DNA of 64,000 nucleotides, from the NCBI GenBank assembly GCA_027489175.1, contig JAIYAE010000033.1, positions 124,001 to 188,000 on the forward strand. The letters are read 5' to 3'. Shown here in pieces: positions 40,754-42,514 of the stretch (positions are counted from its first letter, which is position 1; every line of letters starts with the position of its first letter). The notes beneath the pieces are model-generated. The model had not been told where the DNA came from. It saw nothing but the letters and a program-made list of their open reading frames with translations, and made no database searches. Made by a program: the position numbers and the translations under genes. Source of the stretch: Rhodobacter sp. (GTDB lineage Bacteria > Pseudomonadota > Alphaproteobacteria > Rhodobacterales > Rhodobacteraceae).

Positions 40754-42514
40754 ATGACCGAACTCCTGACCGCCGCGCAGATGCGGGCCATCGAACAGGC
40801 GGCGATAGCCTCGGGTGAGGTTACGGGCCTTCAACTGATGGAACGCGCCGGGCGGGGCGTGGTCGAGGCGATCTTCGAGGAATGGCCGGAACTGCGCGCA
40901 ACCTCGCACCGGGCGGTGGTCCTGTGTGGCCCCGGCAACAACGGCGGCGACGGGTTCGTGGTCGCGCGGCTCTTGAAGGAGTGGGGCTGGGAGGTGGAGG
41001 TCTTCCTCTACGGCGACCCGGAGAAGATGCCGCCGGACGCGCGAGTGAATTATGAGCGGTGGGTGGGGATGGGGGAGGTGATCCACTACGAAGGTACTTG
41101 GGAAAACCCGCCATCTCACATGAACGCCGATTTGGTTGTCGACGCATTGTTTGGGACAGGGCTGACGCGACCGGTCACCGCATCCTTCTATCTCATGTGG
41201 CCAGAAGGCGATCTTCGTTGCCTTCCCGGTGTTGGTCGCGTCGTCGCAGTTGATGTTCCTTCAGGGCTTTGTTCTGACAGCGGACGCGGAATAGGCGAGC
41301 AAGTAGCCCTGGCTGACCTGACGGTCACTTTTCACCGAGCTAAAGTGGGACAGTTCCTTGCCGACGGACCGTCTCTTTGCGGTCGCGTCAGGGTCGCAGA
41401 TATTGGCCTTACGCTTCGCAAGCCTTGGTTGCGTCAATGCCTGCGAGTGATCGGCGCGCAAGACGTCGACCGGGGATGGACTCTGTATCCGCCGGGCGCG
41501 GTTGTGCAGAACGTAGATCCGGAGTGCCGTCTCATTAGCAAACCGAGACTTGGCGGAAAGCGTGAAGATGCCCACAAATACTCTCACGGCCACGCCCTCA
41601 TCCTCTCAGGCCCCTCCGGTCGCGGCGGGGCGGCGCGGCTGGCGGCGCGGGGGGCGCTGCGGATTGGGGCGGGGGTGGTGACGGTGGGGTGTCCTTTGGA
41701 CGCGATCCCCGAGAACGCCGCTCGCTTAGATGCGGTGATGCTGCGGGGGGTGGCGGATGGGCTGGAGCTGGAGGAGGCGCTGACGGACCCGCGGATCAAC
41801 GCGCTTTGTCTTGGGCCGGGGATGGGTGTGGGCGACCGCGAGGCGGGGTTGCTGGCGGTGGGTCTTTCTGCCGGTGGCCCCCCACCCCCATCCCCTCCCC
41901 ACGAGGGGGAGGGGGGGCGCTTGGGGCAGGGCGCAGCGCAAGACGATCAGGCGCTTCCCCTCCCCCTCGTGGGGAGGGGAGAGGGGAGGGGGGCTTCGTC
42001 AAGGGATCGCCGCAAGATCGTCCTCGACGCCGATGCGCTGACGATCCTCTCGCAACACCCCGACCTCTTCGCCGCCTTGCATGAGGGATGCGTCCTGACC
42101 CCCCATGCCGGGGAATTCGCCCGCCTCTTCCCCGACATTGCCGAAAAACTGACCGCCCCCGCCACCAAAGGCCCAGCCTATTCCAAGGTCGACGCCACCC
42201 GCGAGGCCGCCAGCCGCGCGGGCTGCGTGGTGCTTTACAAAGGCCCCGACACAGTGATCGCCGACCCAACCGGGCGCTGCGCCATCAACTCCGCCCATTA
42301 CGACCGCGCGGCACCGTGGCTGGCGACCGCTGGGTCAGGCGATGTGCTGGCGGGGTTCATCACCGGCCTTCTGGCGCGCGGCTTCAGCCCGTTCGATGCC
42401 GCCTGCACCGCCGCCTGGCTGCATGTGGAATGTGCGCTCAGTTTCGGGCCCGGTCTGATTGCCGAGGATCTGCCCGAAGAACTGCCCAAGGTGTTTCGCG
42501 TACTGGGGCTGTGA
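40754..42514 (+). CDS. nnrED: Bifunctional NAD(P)HX epimerase / ADP-dependent NAD(P)HX dehydratase
   Basis: This 586-residue protein repairs hydrated NADH/NADPH. The YjeF-N epimerase half (residues ~1-230) has [17 protein letters not shown] and [12 protein letters not shown]. The kinase-like dehydratase half has [29 protein letters not shown] and [19 protein letters not shown]. Two oddities are present. Bases ~41090-41590 have visibly lower GC and different codons from the flanks. A long palindromic repeat is also inserted in frame at 41877-41994, adding about 40 Gly/Pro/Arg-rich residues. The core motifs on both sides are intact, so the enzyme may still fold. Confidence 0.93.
41877..41994. 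repeat. Palindromic repeat element inserted in frame in nnrD
   Basis: Two 29-base arms at 41892-41920 and 41951-41979 are complementary except at two positions. They are separated by 30 bases, and similarity continues outward to about 41877 and 41994. The arms are runs of CCCCTCCCC and GAGGGGGAGGGG. The element keeps the nnrD frame open and encodes low-complexity protein ([13 protein letters not shown] ... [12 protein letters not shown]) with no counterpart in the enzyme family. It has no coding capacity of its own, so it looks like a non-autonomous palindromic element. Confidence 0.8.

Follow-up and report, generated by a model that had tools for sequence, protein, structure and literature searches.

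The window, as we call the whole 64-kb stretch of DNA that was analysed, belongs to a Tabrizicola-like genome of 3.77 Mb; among named records, those nearest to it in NnrD sequence come from Tabrizicola and other Rhodobacteraceae. It carries an nnrE-nnrD fusion gene whose product is predicted by family to be a bifunctional NAD(P)HX epimerase/dehydratase, and a 118-bp inverted repeat is placed between the conserved GPGMG and VLDADAL motifs of its NnrD domain. The features on which the argument draws are given below in window coordinates (contig positions minus 124000).

40754-42514, plus strand: nnrE-nnrD fusion gene, 586 aa, intact frame, with matches to YjeF_N and Carb_kinase and to TM0922 and other NnrD structures
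41420-41542, plus strand: linker between NnrE and NnrD, codons 223-263, the type of stretch used as a control
41877-41994, no strand: palindromic element of type A, 118 bp, in the order tail, hairpin, spacer, hairpin, tail
41879-41998, plus strand: low-confidence loop of the NnrD domain, codons 376-415, between helix 361-372 and strand 421-424
41892-41914, plus strand (contig 165892-165914): left hairpin unit, CCCCTCCCCACGAGGGGGAGGGG, 23 bases
41915-41956, no strand: spacer that separates the two hairpins and recurs almost unchanged in a single other species (L010)
41957-41979, minus strand (contig 165957-165979): right hairpin unit, 23 bases, identical to the left unit on the other strand
41900-42079, no strand: tract near-identical between the window's sequence (L009) and L010, 175 of 180 bases identical, where the 405 bases that follow it downstream agree at 354

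The preliminary description of this DNA had claimed an in-frame inverted repeat of ~118 bases in the NnrD domain that adds ~40 residues, and both statements hold, as the palindrome is present at 41877-41994 in a reading frame open over 586 aa and corresponds to codons 376-415 within a few bases. The loop segment of the window measures 231 nt, against 93-96 nt in the commonest insert-free alleles, and is therefore 135-138 nt longer. In an AlphaFold model of NnrE-NnrD (pTM 0.58), pLDDT falls below 50 at residues 223-263 and 376-415 only, and stands at 97 in the ten-residue blocks that flank the loop (361-370 and 421-430). Residues 376-415 are probably a disordered loop on this model, low pLDDT being expected anyway for an insert common to few aligned rows. 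Further upstream the middle of the gene (41050-41590) has a GC content of 58%, flanked by stretches of 68% and 73%, and identity to L010 runs at 29-67% per 45-base step from ~41090 to 41585. The gene looks mosaic, and the NnrE/linker segment was possibly acquired; recombination may therefore affect the whole gene and with it the tree used below.

Within the window the type A element is the strongest inverted repeat by far, scoring 24.25 in a scan in which the second of six sites reached 11.75. The RNA fold of 41870-42000 has an energy of -115.1 kcal/mol (z -8.9), with none of 200 dinucleotide shuffles as good, and for self-complementarity the loop region reaches a z of 12.7 (0 of 60 shuffles). 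When 400 kb of the relative G007 was scanned, with gene calls from our own script (356 genes), 28 sites scored at least 9.5; the five intragenic ones all scored 11.75 or less, and all nine sites scoring at least 12 were intergenic. By eye, the copy in L005 is adjoined by a second, diverged hairpin.

Searching the window's genome with the element gave 13 matches at eight places including nnrD, of which the nnrD copy is the only full-length match and all others cover 59 bases or less. A pattern search allowing up to three mismatches found 16 matches, two of them the nnrD hairpins, against one in the reversed control. The nnrD copy is read through as coding, and the seven closest other places in the same genome, which are partial and outside genes, are not. 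A genome-wide search for the arm, which had been called for at the outset, thus finds further copies, intergenic and partial, and the element is not a solitary one. A three-mismatch match inside truB (L049), recognised by eye, looks like chance. Across the class, the type A core occurs in 4 of 142 alphaproteobacterial genomes, the window's own included and one other with seven matches, so type A is not confined to Tabrizicola.

A match to nnrD was found in 337 of 394 genomes; as only the best matches were listed and 145 loci examined, the nearest relatives are over-represented in the counts that follow. From 260 loci 244 were parsed, giving 212 distinct rows (the 16 unparsed are L024, L026, L027, L035, L065, L089, L091, L097, L118, L124, L149, L172, L271, L279, L281 and L282). 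Rows were labelled by motif rules and then by hand correction of single rows, some by judgement, the label of no insert requiring by rule at most 99 nt and the absence of any motif. Eight rows measure exactly 102 nt and fit neither length class; one of them, L076, passes the inverted-repeat test, for which z must be at least 4 with 0 of 60 shuffles. So labelled, 104 of the 212 rows are without a recognisable insert, 81 fall in the palindrome class (palindromic or half elements, of at least four kinds) and 27 hold unclassified extra sequence. The orthologues are thus far from alike in this loop, and the residues noted in the window are no fixed part of the enzyme. The inverted-repeat test was passed by 40 of the 81 palindrome-class rows and by none of the 104 or the 27; the remaining 41 rows of the palindrome class, among which half or decayed elements are numerous, do not pass and count against our main reading. 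When the loci are taken one per genus (141 parsed and 4 unparsed, with the exception that L135 and L137 are both Tabrizicola), 39 are palindromic, 18 unclassified and 84 without insert.

The curated rows comprise 18 of type A, 19 B, 16 C, 6 D, 1 C2, 17 half and 4 combined. In the nnrD loop type A shows the motif CCCCTCCCC, type B CGTCCCGGG...GACCCGGGAC, type C TCGGGG...CCCCGA with GTAG, and type D GGTCTGAAGCCCGG with GTAG. Two combined rows (L025 and L030) read B then A and one from outside Tabrizicola (L073) reads A then B, and half-elements ending in CCTAC and tandem arrays occur family-wide. In Tabrizicola an element is present in all 23 parsed rows (8 C, 6 A, 4 D, 3 B and 2 B+A), 21 of which pass the inverted-repeat test; nine of the 32 Tabrizicola genomes fall outside these rows, four as unparsed and five without a fetched locus.

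We propose a model, which we hold to be rather probable, in which REP-like palindromes enter a tolerated loop of NnrD without breaking the frame, and in which recombination over short tracts swaps them, in part, between species. Type A would be a REP-like repeat made of two opposite hairpin units, of a kind that is otherwise intergenic in the window's genome. The loop joining the helix to the strand that leads into VLDADAL would be a recurrent site throughout the family, with A, B, C, D and various GTAG-tagged half-elements having entered it on separate occasions, and an insert would survive only where the frame stays open and the enzyme can tolerate the added residues as a loop. In Tabrizicola and near genera the resident element would then be exchanged between species, at least partly by short-tract recombination, with the proposed result that type no longer follows descent. 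The occurrence of different palindromes at the same loop is more telling than a single insertion, and suggests that the loop is a landing and swapping site for normally intergenic repeats.

The proposal that nnrD is the sole gene hit was rejected, in-frame elements being found also in valS, cobN, a cobG-like gene and two pdh genes. A type B query matched six of eight Tabrizicola genomes, and the 29 type B loci read comprise 3 in nnrD, 5 in frame elsewhere (cobN, the cobG-like gene in two genomes and valS in two genomes) and 21 without coding-supported read-through. The test of read-through was passed by 193 of 203 in-gene control positions and misses some, as the nnrD copy L309 scored only 2.7. 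Locus L340 gives no read-through at its true match. Of the type B palindromes that lie in frame, L316 and L322/L323 are the ones in cobN and the NIR_SIR (cobG-like) gene. Among 23 parsed Tabrizicola valS loops five are palindromic by eye (two of type B, one diverged B and two GTAG elements); these palindromes, in L369-L373, lie in the loop before PFGDRS, where most other sequences have a non-palindromic KKSVDKETGAEHLEL-like stretch. The GTAG pattern is present in all 32 Tabrizicola genomes, with 1 to 51 matches against 0 to 8 in the reversed control, and does not exceed that control in G009, G022 and G025. Thirty GTAG loci were read, of which two lie in genes (L354 and L367), one is unclear (L363), one borderline (L356) and 26 are not read through. 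L354 and L367 are in-frame GTAG half-elements, flanked by Pfam domains, in the linkers of the E2 and E1-beta subunits of pyruvate dehydrogenase, L354 scoring low (7.4-8.2). The chemistry of insertion we can only infer, and the junctions of the nnrD inserts show by eye no consistent target-site duplication. A RAYT transposase was rejected as the mobiliser, PF01797 giving two sub-threshold matches and none above the Pfam cut-off in the 32 Tabrizicola genomes. REPs are reportedly targets of insertion sequences, which is the subject of a published study.

A history of vertical descent alone, in which lineages sorted a small number of ancient insertions and exchanged none, strikes us as highly improbable, and in its pure form was rejected, as types are unclustered on the gene tree and, overall, on a poorly resolved valS tree. 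In a FastTree of the flanking protein, a short one, from all 212 rows, presence and absence require at least 33 gains or losses with the unclassified rows excluded, and all states require 75. On a DNA tree of 41 rows from Tabrizicola and near rows, type needs 22 changes, where shuffled types need 22.4 on average and are as low in 97 of 200 shuffles, and sister pairs with support of at least 100/99 differ in type (L017 A and L031 C, L011 A and L020 C, L028 C and L093 A, L013 C and L029 D); the sisters L019 and L022 share type B. On the valS tree (17 of 18 rows, with 9 of 14 inner branches unresolved) type needs 10 changes against a shuffled mean of 9.8, the two type B rows form a clade, and the sisters G008 and G023 are both C. 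What speaks for vertical descent, besides this partial clustering of type B, is the constancy of frame, as the left arm keeps one frame in 18 of 18 type A, 7 of 7 type C and 6 of 6 type D cases, and the right arm of A does so in 14 of 15. Many separate random-frame insertions of these three types are therefore unlikely, and their frames suggest few insertions followed by spread; since a second plus-strand frame is also open across the window's element (ORF 41689-42084), the constancy is not due to stops alone. The left arm of type B lies in two phases (6 and 4), which implies at least two entries of B. Against descent without exchange stands also the tract at 41900-42079, which takes in most of the palindrome and ~85 bases on its right and for which the nominal p is 1e-4 with bounds set after seeing the data. 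It points to a short exchange between L009 and L010, as one likely case that does not make exchange the rule. Among 340 same-type pairs, likeness is greater in the element than in the flank downstream of it in only 80 (27 of 153 for type A, 36 of 153 for B, 11 of 28 for C and all 6 for D), and the mean likeness of the element is lower than that of the flank for types A, B and C, so that exchange general to all pairs is unsupported.

Even less can be said for an artefact of assembly or sequencing at G+C-rich hairpins, which we find scarcely credible. Three drafts (L024; L035; and L026/L065, apparently one record) have homopolymer-like nnrD loops that may be miscalled hairpins or decay, but the same kinds of insert recur in isolate genomes (L061, L069) and in metagenome-assembled genomes from different projects, and no loop contains a stop among the 212 parsed rows, for which an open frame was a parsing condition. 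Retention of the hairpin because it serves nnrD in some way, for example through an RNA or DNA structure acting on expression or through a peptide loop of benefit to the protein, would fit the presence of an element in every parsed Tabrizicola row and the retention of palindromy while the sequences differ, as if structure were kept; we nevertheless consider it very unlikely, given that nearly half of the family's sequences do without an insert, that the 27 unclassified rows hold other sequence, and that the same kinds of element are found in other genes and between genes. An explanation that we think unlikely, and which touches a conjectural part of our model, namely the reason for the preference for this loop, is that the elements are attracted by the sequence or structure of the DNA where the VLDADAL codons begin, and that the loop merely tolerates them. 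The exact junction CCTAC|GGT is common to six half-elements (L068, L116, L134, L158, L220, L251) that have between them no fewer than four different stems. This is a hint of target preference and not proof. In the 124 of the 212 proteins whose interdomain linker could be parsed (median 35 residues) strong palindromes occur in 25 of 124 loops and in 4 of 124 linkers (p 4e-5, on a raw score uncorrected for length). Five more linkers match the short REP motif without a strong palindrome and were taken as chance. The loop also outscores every window of the same length tested elsewhere in the ORF in 46 of the 55 longer rows with a palindrome. The linker control argues against the notion that any flexible stretch is equally good, and together with the rest of the ORF indicates that tolerance alone may not suffice. 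However, ten other half-elements end at other distances (L087, L095, L171, L217, L218, L222, L234, L236, L244, L249), the start codons of full elements differ, type B occupies its two phases, and the 32 Tabrizicola genomes yielded no RAYT-type transposase above the cut-off. A bolder version of swapping, distinctly improbable in our estimate, would make the loop a self-renewing recombination hotspot, in which the palindrome forms a cruciform that is cleaved and then mended with incoming DNA of another species as template. If so, the resident hairpin would promote its own replacement, and the loop would be a natural cassette in which palindromes compete within one protein and turn over faster than species form. 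The four strong linker palindromes are those of L015, L250, L253 and L261, of which L015 and L261 are alike.

Entry of repeats into a tolerated loop with partial swapping, as we propose, can be set beside several known systems. GTAG and CGTC REPs are small palindromes, mostly intergenic and often in pairs of opposite orientation, which are sometimes found in frame in enzymes, tRNA synthetases included, according to the part of the account of Di Nocera, De Gregorio and Rocco (2013, PMC3733652) available to us; the occurrence in valS agrees with it. The one case in that portion of the paper of different REPs at about the same site is recB of two Xanthomonas species, whereas several kinds of palindrome share the nnrD loop across many genera. 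Types C and D and the half-elements carry the GTAG REP tag by eye, unpaired in the single unit, with GTAGG or CCTAC adjoining the stems, and the GTAG elements are multi-copy and mostly intergenic in Tabrizicola as such REPs are; the RAYT that goes with them is the point of difference. CGTC REPs, as described in the same excerpt (PMC3733652), have an unpaired CGTC end, an 8-9 bp stem whose first pairs are AT, and paired units that face opposite ways; type B has CGTC at its end and opposite units, but its GTC pairs with a GAC in the stem, which lacks the AT pairs, and B is at best a candidate CGTC REP. Type A bears neither a GTAG nor a CGTC tag by eye and is accordingly called REP-like only.

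The likeness to the Rickettsia palindromic elements (RPE), put forward in the preliminary description, holds in part. RPE are palindromes of 105-146 bp read in frame in conserved proteins, and an RPE-bearing guanylate kinase is reported to be active with altered substrate affinity, in the section of the review seen (PMC2229807). The nnrD element resembles them in form, as an in-frame palindrome of ~100-150 bp in a conserved enzyme gene with insert-free orthologues and with intergenic copies; it departs from them, as far as that section describes them, in its different, G+C-rich host and in the several kinds of element at one site, and the view of a single insertion gives way, as the same loop holds other palindromes. 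The MITE-like repeats, which include the 107-bp Correia elements of Neisseria and the enterobacterial ERIC and RU-1, are also small inverted repeats fused in frame to genes, and target duplications are listed for them in the same part of the review (PMC2229807).

A literature search found no published account of this nnrD site, nor of a family-wide site for palindromes of several types. We rate the class of element as known, and the family-wide site with its many kinds and fast turnover as new. In-frame palindromes have so far been reported mostly as scattered cases, and one loop that is empty, half, full, double or tandem provides a natural series across a family, in which one can ask how repeats enter genes and why they are retained. 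The series also bears on whether a landing site is set by DNA or by the tolerance of the protein, and on how new protein segments arise from selfish DNA. Its tandem states include L170 and L179, from other genera, in whose nnrD loops single units of type B are repeated in tandem, as though by amplification of half-elements.
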